A stretch of DNA of 64,000 nt from Pseudomonas lalkuanensis (lineage in GTDB: Bacteria > Pseudomonadota > Gammaproteobacteria > Pseudomonadales > Pseudomonadaceae), in NCBI RefSeq assembly GCF_008807375.1, contig NZ_CP043311.1, positions 86,001 to 150,000 on the forward strand. The letters run 5' to 3'. The position numbers and the translations under genes are program-made. Each line of letters starts with the position of its first letter. Position 1 is the stretch's first letter. Below the pieces are notes generated by a model. The model searched no databases and was not told the origin of the DNA. It worked only from the letters and a program-made list of their open reading frames with translations. Shown here in pieces: positions 11,659 through 16,841 of this stretch.

Positions 11659-13434
11659 TCACACAGGCAAGGTCATATAGAACTGCGCCCCCTGCCCCGG
11701 CCGTGAATAGAGGCCGACGCGCCCGCCATGCAGCTGCACGATCTCCTTGCACAGCGCCAGGCCCAGGCCGGCGCCGCCCTTGCGGTGGCCGACCTGCACG
11801 AAGGGTTCGAAGATTCGCGCCTGTTGGCTGTAGGGCACACCGTCGCCGTCGTCCGCCACGCCTAGCAGCACCCGTTCGCCGTGACGCCGGGCCTGCAGGC
11901 GGATCTGTCCGCCGTCCGGGCTGTGGCGGATTGCGTTGCCCACCAGGTTGTCCAGCGCCCGCTCGATCTGCAGGCGGTCCAGCTTCACCCGTGGCAGCGG
12001 CGGGTGCAGTTCCAGCTCGATCCCGATACCGCGTTCGCTGGCCTGGGCGCTGTAGCGCTGGCGCAAGGCACAGAGCAGTTCTTCCAGGTCGCAGGGTTCA
12101 CGCTCCAGGGCCTGCACGCCGCTCTGGTAACGGGAGAAATCCAGCAGGTCGTTGATCAGCCGCACCAGCCGCTGCATCTCTTCGTCCACGGTTGCCAGCA
12201 GGTCGGCCTCGCGGCTTTCCGGGTCGAAGCGCAGCCGCTCGTTGAGCAGACCGAAGGCCATCTGCATGCCGGTCACCGGCGTCCGCAGTTCGTGGGAGGC
12301 GCGCAGCACGAACTCCTTGCGTACCCGTTCGAAGGCGCGCTCCTCGGTCACGTCGCGCAGCACCATCACCCCGCCCAGCACGCGCCCGCCCTCCAGCGCC
12401 ACCGGGACCATGCGCCAGCTCAGCAGGCGCTGCTCGGCTTCGGCCATGACCACCAGGTCCTCGGGCTCGTCCTCCAGAGGATCGCCGCGCAGTACGCGCT
12501 GGGCCTGCTCGTCCAGTTCCGCTCGGCCGAGCGCCTTGGACAGGAGGTGGCCATGCGGCACTTCCTCCCAGGACAGCTGCCGCTGGGCCACCGGATTCGC
12601 GTGCTGGATGCGTCCCTGGCGATCGAGGATCAGCAGGCCATCGTCAATGCTGTCGAGCACCGCCTTGAGGCGCTGTTGCTCGCCCAGCAGTTTCTCCACG
12701 TTGGTTTCCTTGAGCAGGCGCAGGGCCTCGGTCATCAGGCCGAAGCGGCGGATCAGCGCAGCCATCTCGTTCACCGGCGACAACGGCAGGGTGACCTGGA
12801 AATCTCCCCGCCCCACCTGGTCGGCCGCCTTGGCCAGGGCGTCGATCGGCGCACCGAAGCGACGGGCGATACCCTGGGCGGTGATGAAACCGATCAACAG
12901 CACGGCGCCGCTGACCAGCCCGAGCAGCCCGGCGATCATCCGGGCGCGGTCACGGGTCGCCGTTTCCGCCGTCCTGACGATGGACAGGGAATGACGTTGC
13001 AGCTCCGCCAGGTTGGCGCGCAGGGCGTCGAGGGCGCGGTCGGTCTCGCGCTGGTCCAGCAGGGTCGTGCGCAGGCTGGCAGGCTGGCGCACGACATCGA
13101 GGAAGACCTGGTAGGACGCTGCGATCTTCTCGAAATGCTCGTGGGCCTGTGGATCGGAGGTCGAATCCAGACCTTCCTTCAGCGCCTCCATGAACCTCTG
13201 TTGGGCGTCCTGCAGGGCCGCGACGTCCACTTCCTCGCCCAGCAAGTTGACCATCTGGTCGCCCAGGTGCTGGCGCATACGCTGGCCGATGTCGAGGGTC
13301 GAGAAAGACTGGTTGATCAGCCGCTCCCGGGAGCCGGCGATCTGGGTCACGCTGACCAGCCCCAGCAACAGGCCCACGAGGGCGACGGTGATCAGTGCCG
13401 AGATGCTCAGGAACAGCCGCGTGCGCAGTCGCAT
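11659..13434 (-). CDS. kinB: Sensor histidine kinase KinB
   Basis: Membrane kinase/phosphatase of the alginate two-component system and partner of AlgB. The 591-aa protein has a first transmembrane helix at about 7-29 and a periplasmic helical sensor (about 30-165). The second helix is at about 167-190, followed by HAMP, PAS (about 255-365) and HisKA domains with phosphoacceptor His in ASHELRTP (about 380). The ATPase domain keeps the N-box (NLVGNAIRHS), DDGDGVP and GGAGLGLA. It follows algB after 14 bases, in the order algB then kinB. In P. aeruginosa KinB mostly acts as an AlgB phosphatase that restrains alginate overproduction. Confidence 0.93.
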   Translation of the reverse strand: MRLRTRLFLSISALITVALVGLLLGLVSVTQIAGSRERLINQSFSTLDIGQRMRQHLGDQMVNLLGEEVDVAALQDAQQRFMEALKEGLDSTSDPQAHEHFEKIAASYQVFLDVVRQPASLRTTLLDQRETDRALDALRANLAELQRHSLSIVRTAETATRDRARMIAGLLGLVSGAVLLIGFITAQGIARRFGAPIDALAKAADQVGRGDFQVTLPLSPVNEMAALIRRFGLMTEALRLLKETNVEKLLGEQQRLKAVLDSIDDGLLILDRQGRIQHANPVAQRQLSWEEVPHGHLLSKALGRAELDEQAQRVLRGDPLEDEPEDLVVMAEAEQRLLSWRMVPVALEGGRVLGGVMVLRDVTEERAFERVRKEFVLRASHELRTPVTGMQMAFGLLNERLRFDPESREADLLATVDEEMQRLVRLINDLLDFSRYQSGVQALEREPCDLEELLCALRQRYSAQASERGIGIELELHPPLPRVKLDRLQIERALDNLVGNAIRHSPDGGQIRLQARRHGERVLLGVADDGDGVPYSQQARIFEPFVQVGHRKGGAGLGLALCKEIVQLHGGRVGLYSRPGQGAQFYMTLPV

Positions 13435-13448
13435 GGCCTTTGCCTCGT

Positions 13449-14795
13449 TCAGAGGCCGTAGAGCTTGCGCTTGCGGTACAGGGTGGAAGCGTCGATGCCG
13501 AGGGTGCGGGCGGCCTGGTCCAGGGTGTCGCTGCTGGCCAGCACCCCGGCGATATGCGCCCGCTCCAGTTCCTCCAGGCTCAGGGGCCCACCCACTCGCG
13601 GCGTGTTGGCGGCGGGCGTGTCGCCCAACCCCAGGTGGCTGACGTCCACCACCTCCTGGTTGCAGATGATGCTGGCGCGTTCGATCACGTTGCGCAGCTC
13701 TCGCACATTGCCTGGCCAGCGGTAACCCTGCAGCGCCGAGATCGCCGCCTCACTGAAGGCGCGCGCGGGGCGCCCGTAGTCGCCGACGAAGCGCGCCAGG
13801 AAGCGCTCGGCGAGGTCGAGGATGTCTTCGTGGCGCTCCCGCAGCGGCGGCAGGCTCAGGGCGATCACATTGATGCGGTAGAGCAGGTCCTCGCGGAAGC
13901 GGCCGTCGCGGGACATCTCCTCCAGGTCGAGGTTGGTGGCGGCGAGGATGCGCACGTCGGCACGGCGGGTCACCGGGTCGCCCACACGCTCGTATTCCTT
14001 GTCCTGGATGAAGCGCAGCAGCTTGGGCTGCAGGCTCAGGGGAAAGTCGCCGATCTCATCGAGGAACAGGGTGCCGCCGTCGGCCTGGCTGACCCGGCCG
14101 AGGGTGCTTTCGCTGGCCCCGGTGAAGGCGCCGCGGTTGTGGCCGAACAGCTCGCTTTCCATCAGGTCTGCCGACAGCGAAGGGCAGTTGACGGTGACGA
14201 AGGACTTCTTCGCCCGCTTGCTCCAGCCGTGGATGGCGCGGGCCAGCTCACCCTTGCCAGTGCCGGATTCGCCGAGGATGAGGATGTTGGCGTCGGTGCC
14301 GGCCACCTGTCGTGCGGTTTCCAGCACCGTCATCATCGACGGGCTCTCGGACGCCAGGCCTTCACCGGCGCGGCGCATCTCGCCCTCCAGGGCTTCCAGG
14401 CGCGCGGTGAGCTGGCACATTTCCAGCTGCTTGGCCGCAGCCATGCGCAACTGGTCCGGGCTGCAGGGTTTGACCAGGTAGTCGGCGGCGCCGGCCTGCA
14501 TGGCGTCCACCGCCGTATCCACGGCCGAGTGCGCGGTGACGATCACCACGCGCATCCAGGGCGCCTGTACGCGCATCTGCGCCAGCACATCCAGGCCGTT
14601 GTCCTCGCCCAGGCGCAGGTCGAGGAAGCACAGGTCGAACACCTGCCGTTGCAGGATCGCCTCGGCCTGCGCCGCGCTGCCCGCCGTGGCGACGCTGTAG
14701 CCCTCATCCTCGAGGCAGTAACGGAAAGTGCGCAGGATGGCGGCTTCGTCATCCACCAAGAGAATTCGTCCCTGGTTCTCGCTTGCCTGTTCCAT
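13449..14795 (-). CDS. algB: Alginate regulator AlgB, NtrC-family response regulator
   Basis: Response regulator controlling alginate and other virulence genes, 448 aa. The receiver domain has phosphoacceptor D59 in FLDLRLGED. The sigma-54 AAA+ domain has Walker A GESGTGKG, the GAFTGA loop that contacts sigma-54, and a Walker B-like LFLDEIGDF. The C-terminal Fis-type helix-turn-helix ends in LGIDASTLYRKRKLYGL. I chose the ATG at 14795 (MEQASENQ) over one at 14819 because GGAGCGAG lies just upstream and the receiver domain starts at once. The promoter region contains the first of two 55-bp double-palindrome repeats, compatible with autoregulation. Confidence 0.93.
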   Translation of the reverse strand: MEQASENQGRILLVDDEAAILRTFRYCLEDEGYSVATAGSAAQAEAILQRQVFDLCFLDLRLGEDNGLDVLAQMRVQAPWMRVVIVTAHSAVDTAVDAMQAGAADYLVKPCSPDQLRMAAAKQLEMCQLTARLEALEGEMRRAGEGLASESPSMMTVLETARQVAGTDANILILGESGTGKGELARAIHGWSKRAKKSFVTVNCPSLSADLMESELFGHNRGAFTGASESTLGRVSQADGGTLFLDEIGDFPLSLQPKLLRFIQDKEYERVGDPVTRRADVRILAATNLDLEEMSRDGRFREDLLYRINVIALSLPPLRERHEDILDLAERFLARFVGDYGRPARAFSEAAISALQGYRWPGNVRELRNVIERASIICNQEVVDVSHLGLGDTPAANTPRVGGPLSLEELERAHIAGVLASSDTLDQAARTLGIDASTLYRKRKLYGL

Positions 14796-14839
14796 GATCT
14801 CGCTCCATTTCCGAGTCATAGAAAGTTAGTCCAAGAATC

Positions 14840-14895
14840 ATCGTGCAAGTTGCACGCGCTTTTCCTACACGGCTTGCAGCATGCAAGCGCAGGAA
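14840..14895 (+). promoter_or_regulatory. Double-palindrome repeat, copy 1 (predicted enhancer-binding-protein site)
   Basis: Contains palindrome CGTGCAAGTTGCACG (14842-14856) and palindrome CTTGCAGCATGCAAG (14873-14887), separated by 16 bases. A second, nearly identical copy lies at 15271-15325 in the same orientation. It is 46 bp upstream of the algB start and about 50 bp upstream of a sigma-54-like promoter that reads the other way. TGCAA/TTGCA half-sites arranged like this fit a dimeric NtrC-type activator; AlgB is the obvious candidate but this is inference. Confidence 0.6.
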
Positions 14896-14936
14896 CACTG
14901 GGCTGCAGGTCCAGATTGCTGATTTCCGGGGATTTC

Positions 14937-14951
14937 CGGCACGGGCGTTGC
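14937..14951 (+). promoter_or_regulatory. Sigma-54-like promoter 1 (reads away from algB)
   Basis: CGGCACGGGCGTTGC matches TGGCACG-N4-TTGC except for the first base; the invariant GG and GC are ten bases apart as required. The predicted start is near 14963. Copy 1 of the double palindrome lies 51-96 bases before the GG, a normal activator distance. Confidence 0.55.
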
Positions 14952-14969
14952 CCCTTTTCCCTTACCTGA

Positions 14970-15170
14970 ATGCGGAAAGGGTCGATTCCTGTGGGGGCCT
15001 TTTCCCAACCAGGTGCGCTCCCTTCGTACTCGCCCGAACCCCCGCTGGCGGGCCCACACTTCTTGCTCGGCCTGGTGGGGATATTCGGTCTGCTCGGGCT
15101 GCTCTCTGAATGGCCGCCGAATGAGTGGGGTCAATCCACCTGGAGCGATTTCGGTCGCCTGATGCCATGA
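14970..15170 (+). CDS. Possible 66-aa small membrane protein downstream of sigma-54 promoter 1
   Basis: I do not recognise this ORF. It encodes a Pro-rich N-terminus, a hydrophobic segment (HFLLGLVGIFGLLGLL) and a tail rich in Trp and acidic residues (EWPPNEWGQSTWSDF). It begins only about seven bases after the predicted sigma-54 transcription start and has no visible Shine-Dalgarno, so it would be nearly leaderless. Codon third positions are less GC-biased than in neighbouring genes, which argues against a real gene. The transcript could instead be non-coding. Confidence 0.25.
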   Translation: MRKGSIPVGAFSQPGALPSYSPEPPLAGPHFLLGLVGIFGLLGLLSEWPPNEWGQSTWSDFGRLMP

Positions 15171-15270
15171 ATCCAGGAACTACCGGGGCCGGTGAGGAAC
15201 ATCGCCGTCACCCCGGGCTCCGCCTTGCGCAGCTGGTTCGGGCTGCCGGTGTGGCCAGCCATGAAGAAAT

Positions 15271-15325
15271 ATCGTGCAAGTTGCACGCACTTTTCCGGCA
15301 GGCCTTGCAGCATGCAAGCGAAGGA
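15271..15325 (+). promoter_or_regulatory. Double-palindrome repeat, copy 2 (predicted enhancer-binding-protein site)
   Basis: Palindromes CGTGCAAGTTGCACG (15273-15287) and CTTGCAGCATGCAAG (15304-15318) recur with the same 16-base gap as in copy 1. The palindromes are identical between copies, while the intervening bases differ at several positions. That pattern of conservation points to protein-binding sites. It lies 67 bases before the GG of sigma-54 promoter 2. Confidence 0.6.
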
Positions 15326-15383
15326 AGTCGTGAGCCGGACGCTAATACGCTGATCGATAAGGAAATTCTTCAACTTGAAAGAC

Positions 15384-15398
15384 TGGCACAGGCCTTGC
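15384..15398 (+). promoter_or_regulatory. Sigma-54 promoter 2, near-consensus
   Basis: TGGCACAGGCCTTGC matches TGGCAC-N5-TTGC exactly, with GG and GC ten bases apart. The predicted start is near 15410, giving a leader of about 257 bases before the 79-aa membrane-protein gene. The leader includes a CCGTCC/GGACGG hairpin near 15515-15535. Copy 2 of the double palindrome is at about -137 to -92 relative to the start. Confidence 0.7.
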
Positions 15399-15572
15399 GA
15401 GATCCCTGGTACCTGAAGGCGCGTCGGTCTTTCACCTCTTGTGACCGTTACACACCCCAGGACCACTCCGCCTGGAACAGGGAGGTTCCGGGCCTTTTGT
15501 CAGCGGTGATCCGTCCGGGGAGCAGGACGGGAATTTCCGTCGGAGCTGGCAGGGATGCCGGCGCAAGCGAGT

Positions 15573-15599
15573 GAATTTCCGATGTATTCAGGGCCCCGA
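15573..15599 (+). promoter_or_regulatory. Possible AlgU-type promoter before the small-envelope-gene run
   Basis: GAATTT (15573-15578), 16 bases, then CCCGA (15595-15599): five of six and three of five matches to GAACTT-N16-TCTGA. It is 68 bases before the 79-aa gene. AlgU input would fit the alginate setting, but the match is weak. Confidence 0.3.
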
Positions 15600-15666
15600 G
15601 TGGCATGGGCCGTGCGCTCGTAGTCTCGAGGTCGATCGAACATCCGCCCAAGGGGAGGATTCGAGG

Positions 15667-15906
15667 ATGAAGGGTTTCCAGTGGTGGTCGCCCAGTTGGC
15701 TCATGGTGGTGCTGATCGGGCTCGTGGTAGTGCTCGGCATGCTCGCTGACTATTTCCTGCGCGAAGGCGCCCGGCCTGCGCCGCTGCAGATTCCCGCAGT
15801 GGAACAGAGCAGCAGGACGGCGCCGGTTCGTGCCGACGGGCCGCTGCACGAAGTGAGTCAGCCCGCGCAGACCGAGGTCGTTACCCAGCTGCGCTGGGTC
15901 TTCTGA
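15667..15906 (+). CDS. Small single-pass membrane protein, function unknown
   Basis: A 79-aa protein beginning [11 protein letters not shown], followed by one hydrophobic helix (about residues 11-28) and a hydrophilic, Pro/Gln-rich tail that would face the periplasm by the positive-inside rule. I do not recognise a family. GGGGAGG eight bases before the ATG is a strong ribosome-binding site. It is the first gene of a tight same-strand run (49-aa peptide, DUF1328, Ivy-like) downstream of a sigma-54 promoter and a possible AlgU promoter, so a role in envelope stress is a reasonable guess. Confidence 0.6.
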
Positions 15907-16103: not shown

Positions 16104-16265
16104 ATGTTGAGCTGGGCACTTACTTTTCTCGTCATTGCCATCGTTGCCGCCGTGCTGGGTTTTGGCGGCATCGCCGGGACCGCCGCGGGCATCGCGAAGA
16201 TCCTCTTCGTCATCTTCCTGGTGTTGTTCGTGGTGTCCTTCATCATTGGTCGACGAGCGCCCTGA
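16104..16265 (+). CDS. DUF1328 (YtjA/UPF0391) small membrane protein
   Basis: A 53-aa protein made of two hydrophobic helices: [19 protein letters not shown], then [20 protein letters not shown]. This is the standard DUF1328 pattern. Members are often induced by envelope or general stress, but their function is not known. AAGGAGAAG lies just before the ATG. The Ivy-like ORF begins nine bases after the stop, so the two are probably co-transcribed. Confidence 0.88.
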
Positions 16266-16274
16266 GGCGGTTGC

Positions 16275-16748
16275 ATGGAATGCCTGGACAAGGTGCCGGT
16301 CGCCTGGCGCGCGGATTTGGCCGGCCCCTCGGCGCTGGCCGCCGACAGGGATGCCCAGCATCGGCTCAACGAATTGCCTGGCAGTGATCCCGGGTATCGG
16401 GAGACCTGGCAGGAGAGTGTGGAAGACAAGGGCGACAGGTTCCTGGTGGGCGAGCTCTGCGAAGCGAGGAGTTGCTGCAACCAGCACCGCTATGTCGCCT
16501 TCAGCTGGAACAAGGACGCCGTCCGGGGACTCTATGTGCAGGTACCGGATGGATTGCCGTCCGGTAAGTCGCCCAGTCGACATGCCAGTTTCCGCTGGCT
16601 CGGCGAGCCGGATGACGAAGTCCGGCGCATCCTCGACGAGCAATTGAAGGCGGACCCGAACTGGTATCGAGACCAGAGGGAACCAGGCCCGCCGATGGGC
16701 CGAGGGACCAGGGGGCCGGGTTGTTCCGCGTCGTCAGGAGCGGCGTGA
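16275..16748 (+). CDS. Ivy-like (vertebrate lysozyme inhibitor family) protein, divergent
   Basis: A 157-aa protein whose core (LNELPGSDPGYRETWQE, the Cys pair, then NQHRYVAFSW and GLYVQVPDG) follows the Ivy fold. Active Ivy proteins have a CKPHDC loop that plugs lysozyme. Here it reads CEARSC, so the Cys spacing is kept but the key Lys-Pro-His-Asp is lost, and lysozyme inhibition is doubtful. P. aeruginosa has an Ivy paralogue next to algB (PA5481, as I recall), which supports the assignment. The N-terminus lacks a hydrophobic core, yet SALAAD resembles a signal-peptidase site, so the signal peptide may be degenerate or the start wrong. Confidence 0.6.
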   Translation: MECLDKVPVAWRADLAGPSALAADRDAQHRLNELPGSDPGYRETWQESVEDKGDRFLVGELCEARSCCNQHRYVAFSWNKDAVRGLYVQVPDGLPSGKSPSRHASFRWLGEPDDEVRRILDEQLKADPNWYRDQREPGPPMGRGTRGPGCSASSGAA

Positions 16749-16799
16749 CCCAGGGGCAGAAGGGGTGCCTCCGCAATCATGCGGGCCAGGTCAGGAGAG

Positions 16800-16841
16800 C
16801 TGCTGCCGGGAGCTGGATAACCTCCAGCTCCCGGCGGGCAG
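16800..16841 (+). terminator. Strong hairpin downstream of the Ivy-like gene
   Basis: CTGCTGCCGGGAGCTGG (16800-16816) pairs with CCAGCTCCCGGCGGGCAG (16824-16841) around a seven-base loop. No T-run follows, so it may terminate weakly or protect an mRNA end. Confidence 0.45.

Follow-up and report, generated by a model that had tools for sequence, protein, structure and literature searches.

What does the DNA upstream of algB in Pseudomonas lalkuanensis drive, and why is part of it present twice? In the 64,000-nt stretch analyzed here (the window), algB and its partner gene kinB lie on the minus strand, and a block carrying two palindromes (dyads 1 and 2) occurs twice in tandem beside the start of algB. 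IHF-like sites were judged against the IHF consensus.

11659–13434, minus strand: kinB, the partner sensor kinase of AlgB (Pfam KinB_sensor, HisKA, HATPase_c)
13449–14819, minus strand: algB, NtrC-type response regulator (Pfam Response_reg, Sigma54_activat, HTH_8)
14845–14853, plus strand: dyad 1 of copy 1, GCAAGTTGC (15-bp palindrome at 14842–14856)
14876–14884, plus strand: dyad 2 of copy 1, GCAGCATGC (palindrome at 14873–14887)
14912–14922, plus strand: IHF-like site of copy 1, CAGATTGCTGA, off consensus
14937–14951, plus strand: −24/−12 element of copy 1
15276–15284, plus strand: dyad 1 of copy 2, GCAAGTTGC (palindrome at 15273–15287)
15307–15315, plus strand: dyad 2 of copy 2, GCAGCATGC (palindrome at 15304–15318)
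15343–15353, plus strand: IHF-like site of copy 2, TAATACGCTGA, at a position shared in a 19-sequence genus alignment
15384–15398, plus strand: sigma-54 −24/−12 element of copy 2, TGGCACAGGCCTTGC, perfect to the searched consensus

A preliminary description of this locus had reported a two-copy block with identical palindromes at the same spacing, each copy followed by a −24/−12 element, at 14937 and 15384. The block is present as stated, and we measured the repeat at 63 nt (14833–14895 and 15264–15326; 87% identical; offset 431 bp). Every dyad has perfect 6-bp arms and a 3-bp center in both copies, and dyads 1 and 2 are 31 bp apart, or about three helical turns. Both −24/−12 elements were also recovered, the one at 14937 with C instead of T as its first base; TGGCACAGGCCTTGC at 15384 satisfies the GG-N10-GC requirement of a sigma-54 element, which is kept across the genus. 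The idea of two equivalent working modules was not supported. In copy 1, the spacer between dyad 2 and −24 is short (52 bp vs. 68 bp in copy 2), the −24 has the C, the IHF-like site is off consensus, and no terminator follows. Judged by these sequence features, only copy 2 looks intact.

Individually, the parts are unremarkable. The −24/−12 pattern alone is at chance level (8 found vs. 7.96 expected, one mismatch allowed), and neither palindrome alone, with three mismatches allowed, is in excess over chance. The composite pattern TGCAAGTTGCA-N12–24-TTGCAN3TGCAA, in turn, has two matches in the 6,056,953-bp genome, both in the window copies, and none in the reversed control. A looser GCAN3TGC pair plus sigma-54 element also has two matches, namely copy 2 and a site 5 Mb off that lies before a gene for a single-BON exported-looking protein; copy 1 is missed because its spacing is short. 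Chance as the origin of the module was rejected on the combination of its parts, and it is this combination, with the spacing and conservation of the parts, that makes up the evidence for a module.

On balance, we consider it probable that the block is part of an enhancer-type sigma-54 promoter at which AlgB and IHF act, that copy 2 makes a trans-acting RNA, that copy 1 has decayed and that algB is self-limited. An NtrC-family activator, most likely AlgB made from the divergent gene, would bind both GCAN3TGC dyads, IHF would bend the DNA between the dyads and the −24/−12 element, and RpoN-RNA polymerase would transcribe away from algB. From copy 2, this would yield an RNA of ~92 nt with two hairpins that ends at its own terminator and probably acts in trans by pairing, with the conserved ACCUCUUGUG loop as its contact surface. 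By activating the divergent unit, AlgB would at the same time restrain its own gene. As for copy 1, it would be a decayed duplicate of a paralogous unit of RNA and small ORF.

A candidate small RNA after copy 2

The preliminary description gave starts only; after copy 2 we can add a conserved structured RNA and a terminator, followed by a third promoter-like element and a small operon:

15408–15499, plus strand: candidate small RNA, ~92 nt, two hairpins, loop ACCTCTTGTG
15470–15493, plus strand: intrinsic terminator hairpin, 9 bp with a 6-nt loop, then CTTTTG
15601–15615, plus strand: third −24/−12 element (module B), TGGCATGGGCCGTGC; dyads not recognizable in the window
15667–15906, plus strand: small membrane-protein-like ORF (MKGFQWW...) after module B, no Pfam match
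16104–16265, plus strand: DUF1328 small protein (Pfam PF07043)
16275–16748, plus strand: Ivy-type lysozyme inhibitor (Pfam PF08816)

Promoter, structured RNA and terminator are thus all present at copy 2, as sequence features. A covariance model seeded with 13 genus sequences was searched against 296 family genomes, using strict filters that lose weak matches; it matched 14 genomes, all within this genus (14 of its 18 genomes). Three of its finds lay outside the seed set: the RNAs of G001 and of G012 copy 1, which had already been spotted by eye, and a new one, the second copy in G009. The ten-base loop ACCTCTTGTG is identical in all 13 aligned genus genomes and one base off in the 14th, G001, and 13 of the 14 share the loop ACCUCUUGUG without change; paralogous RNAs carry other loops. 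Over 13 genomes, the mean pairwise identity is 0.75 in the RNA vs. 0.51 and 0.47 in its flanks.

The cells of the terminator stem are 98% paired. Two-sided pair changes in the plain MAFFT alignment numbered 4 vs. 2.5 in shuffles, with 91 of 500 shuffles as high, and in the alignment fitted to the model 13 vs. 5.3, with 0 of 500 as high. When folding was compared with shuffles, the window RNA gave a modest z of −1.65, and the RNAs of relatives gave −3.4, −2.8 and −4.3, with −0.47 and −0.82 for two others.

The RNA segment has no match in Rfam at E up to 1, and this includes the Qrr family, for which Rfam has a model. Known RNAs over the segment were considered and rejected: ivy-DE sits elsewhere, and a mir-598 match is far below cut-off, on the other strand and inside algB. 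The ivy-DE element (RF02999; 62.2 bits) is found on the plus strand at 16705–16801, at the end of the Ivy gene. A protein-coding reading was also rejected, since the ORFs at 15125–15574 (plus), 14865–15134 (minus) and 15131–15466 (minus) have no Pfam match and the RNA segment contains single-base indels among relatives. Searches for targets yielded no convincing candidate. Across 14 genomes, the complement of 11 nt of the loop, CACAAGAGGTA, was met a single time other than in the RNA, and the eight-nt complements CAAGAGGT...ATG showed no excess over the reversed control among the matches listed for 13 genomes. A few complements before an ATG recur in several genomes (19 regions looked at, without a statistic). 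The recurring sites, which we take to be CcoQ-like, PTS-like and PrmA-like starts, were not used as targets, having no statistic behind them.

The 92-nt segment could instead be a cis-acting leader with a conditional terminator (an attenuator) for the small-ORF/DUF1328/Ivy operon rather than a free RNA. The U-run of the terminator is short (CTTTTG, only four Ts), and conserved loops can serve as ligand or protein sites. Moreover, G001 and G010 are without module B and have the DUF1328 gene closely behind the terminator with no visible second promoter, which makes a leader possible. Between terminator and operon, however, dyad-like sequences of a separate module B can be made out by eye in 9 of the 14 RNA-bearing genomes, which favors a free small RNA over a leader; module B dyads are not recognizable in G000 (the genome of the window), G012 or G015, but the window retains the −24/−12 element at 15601. 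We regard the attenuator as unlikely, and we continue with the trans-acting RNA as the preferred reading.

Within the genus, the candidate RNA alternates with protein genes. The 14 RNA-bearing genomes make up one side of a branch of the algB tree (support 100/99), and on this tree the RNA has a single origin. In exactly the other four genomes (G003, G007, G008 and G017), the same promoter precedes an algB-linked DUF2383 gene, with a triple-BON gene before it, also algB-linked, in three of the four. No RNA-bearing genome (0/14) has an algB-linked DUF2383 gene; judged from the genomes in hand, RNA and algB-linked DUF2383 gene are mutually exclusive in this genus. RNA-bearing G005 has a distant relative of this gene at another place (26% identity). 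At other loci, distant matches of triple-BON length (38–45%) turn up in 10 of the 14, the genome of the window among them, so that the function may not be gone. Separately, we considered the RNA as a leftover terminator of the BON-DUF2383 operon. This idea is weak, as the hairpin after DUF2383 in G008 reaches only E 0.64 with the covariance model and has no T-run.

Copy 1 is followed by traces of a similar unit:

14963–15015, plus strand: RNA hairpin remnant, from the fold; second (terminator) hairpin missing
15021–15170, plus strand: small-ORF remnant with its start lost, from comparison by eye; intact after copy 1 of G012 (JM0905a) (MTSYLSYSPETPETPLTG...)

Copy 1 looks, from these traces, like the decayed remnant of a paralogous unit of RNA and small ORF. 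G009 and G012 have such a second, paralogous unit, consisting of the module, an RNA with a different loop and a small ORF, and by eye copy 1 of the window is its counterpart minus the second hairpin and the ORF start. In G012 copy 1 the second hairpin is kept, but with too few Ts for a terminator call. Two copies at the algB-side place were found only in the window and G012 among the 18 genus genomes, under strict patterns that decayed copies would escape; the second unit of G009 is placed differently. The closest relative by AlgB identity (G015, 98%) has a single copy. By eye, this module (locus L155, from 1440) looks like a chimera of the two copies, such as recombination between the repeats with loss of the middle would leave. 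The inactivity of copy 1 is itself a guess, given that its 52-bp spacer is only 4 bp below the family minimum of 56 bp.

The module across Pseudomonadaceae and its link to algB

The pattern dyad-N20-dyad-N60–72-sigma54 was searched in 298 genomes of the family and is present in 172, with 0 matches to the reversed control in every row. With AlgB presence called at E at most 1e-140, the pattern is found in 170 of 250 AlgB-positive genomes vs. 2 of 48 AlgB-negative genomes, the two exceptions being G195 (92% complete) and G250 (73% complete). The difference is also seen inside the two genera that hold both AlgB states in number (22/31 vs. 1/6 in g5 and 65/97 vs. 0/6 in g14; stratified permutation p = 1.5e-4). 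In the genus of the window, all 18 genomes have the module directly or almost directly next to algB. This co-occurrence, observed at the level of sequence, supports an enhancer for AlgB.

The preliminary description had asked whether palindromes and −24/−12 elements are co-conserved upstream of algB in relatives. A single module is widespread in the family. Among 89 algB upstream regions from 90 family loci (L180 was dropped, its AlgB start not being recognized), a perfect dyad pair at 30–32 bp is present in 42 and absent from 47; 37 regions add a sigma-54 element, and 34 of these 37 also have a putative IHF site, defined as the pattern YAANNNNYTGA after the IHF consensus. The reversed control gave 0/89, and loci outside the family 0/19. 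The distance from dyad 2 to −24 in the 37 loci is 56–69 bp (64–69 bp in 35 of them, 56 bp in two g4 genomes). Many fluorescens/putida-group loci, viewed by eye in 15 named cases, have one GCAAGTTGC at algB, followed at some distance by a looser second module, and such loci drop out of the strict count. A perfect dyad pair without a recognizable −24/−12 element is found at L042 and at four g9 loci (L179, L181, L183 and L186). An alignment of 19 module sequences from the 18 genus genomes shows no variation in the CGTGCAAGTTGCA stretch; the spacers vary, and against them both the IHF-like AA....TGAT and the −24/−12 element stand out as conserved.

AlgB was put forward earlier as an NtrC-type activator with an intact GAFTGA loop, and this is borne out by the motif in its translation and by receiver, AAA+ and HTH domains in Pfam. 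Its place as the leading binder is strengthened by the co-occurrence of module and algB over the family, which makes it the best candidate; that it binds the dyads is what we infer.

A different NtrC-family activator may bind a module that is real, with AlgB merely its neighbor. Twenty of the 30 family loci read with the pattern are away from algB, so another activator with similar sites is possible, and sites of the TTGCAN3TGCAA type are used in an overlapping manner by LuxO and SypG (PMC10162802, in excerpt). The pattern is nearly missing from AlgB-negative genomes, though, within genera too, and the module lies at algB throughout the genus; furthermore, no such activator was recognized by eye among the ORFs in 7 kb around the BON-gene site described below. 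Taken together, these points make another activator improbable, and AlgB remains our preferred activator.

The 20 loci away from algB (L105, L106, L109, L112–L115, L117–L121, L123, L125–L130 and L132) could belong to a wider AlgB regulon, or a different activator could serve them. Where tested, their modules precede genes for DUF3509, BON and small exported-looking proteins. The genome of the window itself has a second full module on the minus strand (G000:C1:5109022–5109145, in L133), before a gene for a single-BON exported-looking protein. Among the matches listed, a module adjoins the single-BON gene, by position, in at least 16 of the 18 genus genomes, with none listed for G001.

The block might also be duplicated as a mobile element or recombination repeat, with only an incidental likeness to a promoter. 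This would fit two near-identical 63-nt copies 431 bp apart and a copy number that differs among close relatives (one in G015, two in G012), but it is very improbable, as the genome has just these two copies and, outside them, the spacing, IHF-like site and −24/−12 element recur over the family with zero reversed-control matches.

A putative algB promoter overlapping dyad 1

On the opposite strand, dyad 1 of copy 1 coincides with part of a possible promoter for algB:

14826–14852, minus strand: putative AlgU-type algB promoter, with CAACTT at 14847–14852 (inside dyad 1), 17 bp, and CTAA at 14826–14829

AlgU-type promoters have a GAACTT-like −35, 16–17 bp and a TCTRA-like −10. The CAACTT-N17-CTAA layout resembles such a promoter and departs from the consensus. 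According to the title of one paper, expression of algR, algB and algD reportedly forms a hierarchy modulated by algT. Dyad 1 reads GCAACTTGC on the algB strand, and this sequence or a close variant lies within 260 bp upstream of algB in 98 of 102 readable loci (104 given). The spacer from CAACTT to CTAA is exactly 17 bp in 89 of the 95 loci that have CAACTT and 18 bp in 3, with CTAA absent in 3, although algB loci are related and these are not 95 independent cases. An overlap with the −35 would explain why dyad 1 always has AGT at its center when it lies next to algB; away from algB, AGT is the center in 0 of 18 genus pattern rows. With the algB-proximal dyad 1 on the −35 of this putative promoter, AlgB would limit its own gene.

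The promoter would begin a transcript near 14819, which suggests that AlgB begins at 14795 rather than at the first codon of the longest ORF. The true start is likely this ATG (MEQASENQ), eight codons inside the ORF that begins at 14819: an SD-like GGAGCGAG lies upstream of it, and the alignment with family AlgB homologues outside the genus begins at residue 8 or 9 in most.

Parallels and implications

In layout, the copy 2 unit resembles LuxO-sigma-54-qrr1 of Vibrio, in which an NtrC-type regulator, a sigma-54 promoter and two dyads also come together with a small RNA (here a candidate) beside the regulator gene. In excerpts of the papers concerned, the sigma-54 promoter of V. fischeri qrr1 is preceded by two dyads that fit TTGCAWWWTGCAA, the motif of LuxO (PMC10162802), and V. 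cholerae qrr1 adjoins luxO (qrr1<>VC1021, where VC1021 is luxO; PMC10328515). A LuxO chain, 5ep0, is among the solved structures closest to AlgB by sequence. The differences are that the RNA here has no Rfam match, that organism and signaling pair are others, and that there is an IHF-like site and an overlap with an AlgU-like promoter.

In Pseudomonas, the CbrB-sigma-54-CrcZ system is similar in that a two-component regulator of the NtrC type controls a small RNA from a sigma-54 promoter. It differs in the sites used by CbrB and in CrcZ itself, which is longer and titrates Hfq; the candidate RNA here is without an Rfam match. The window also has DUF1328 and Ivy genes in a place like that of PA5482-PA5481, which we take to adjoin algB in P. 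aeruginosa. PA5481, which shares an operon with PA5482, is of the Ivy type, and an RNA is not mentioned for that operon in the available text (PMC4981712, in part).

For AlgB itself, published excerpts describe the GAFTGA motif (PMC6932827) and, per a review, binding of unphosphorylated AlgB to three sites in the algD promoter (PMC10418997). AlgB is the regulator in both settings, but the available part of that review describes no sigma-54 promoter at algB. A limited search of open-licence PMC papers turned up neither an AlgB site of this form nor a description of a sigma-54 promoter at algB itself. As far as the main texts at hand extend, a SELEX atlas mentions AlgB three times and yields no site (PMC8041468), PMC11957545 mentions AlgB once, and PMC13086498 does not mention it.

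A bolder version of our model is decidedly tentative. In this clade, the AlgB/sigma-54/IHF promoter may have lost a triple-BON and DUF2383 envelope-stress operon and may now make a trans-acting small RNA, an arrangement that would have been reached independently of LuxO-qrr1 in Vibrio; dyad 1 would double as the algB −35, forming a switch that lowers algB as the RNA rises.

Work on AlgB has centered on its regulation of alginate, biofilm and virulence. If it binds the dyads, a motif is ready for finding its direct sigma-54 targets family-wide, and BON-domain, DUF2383, DUF1328, DUF3509 and small exported-looking proteins would be candidate targets. The clade would also be a datable case of a promoter that switched from driving protein genes to driving a small RNA, the protein state being retained in four genomes.
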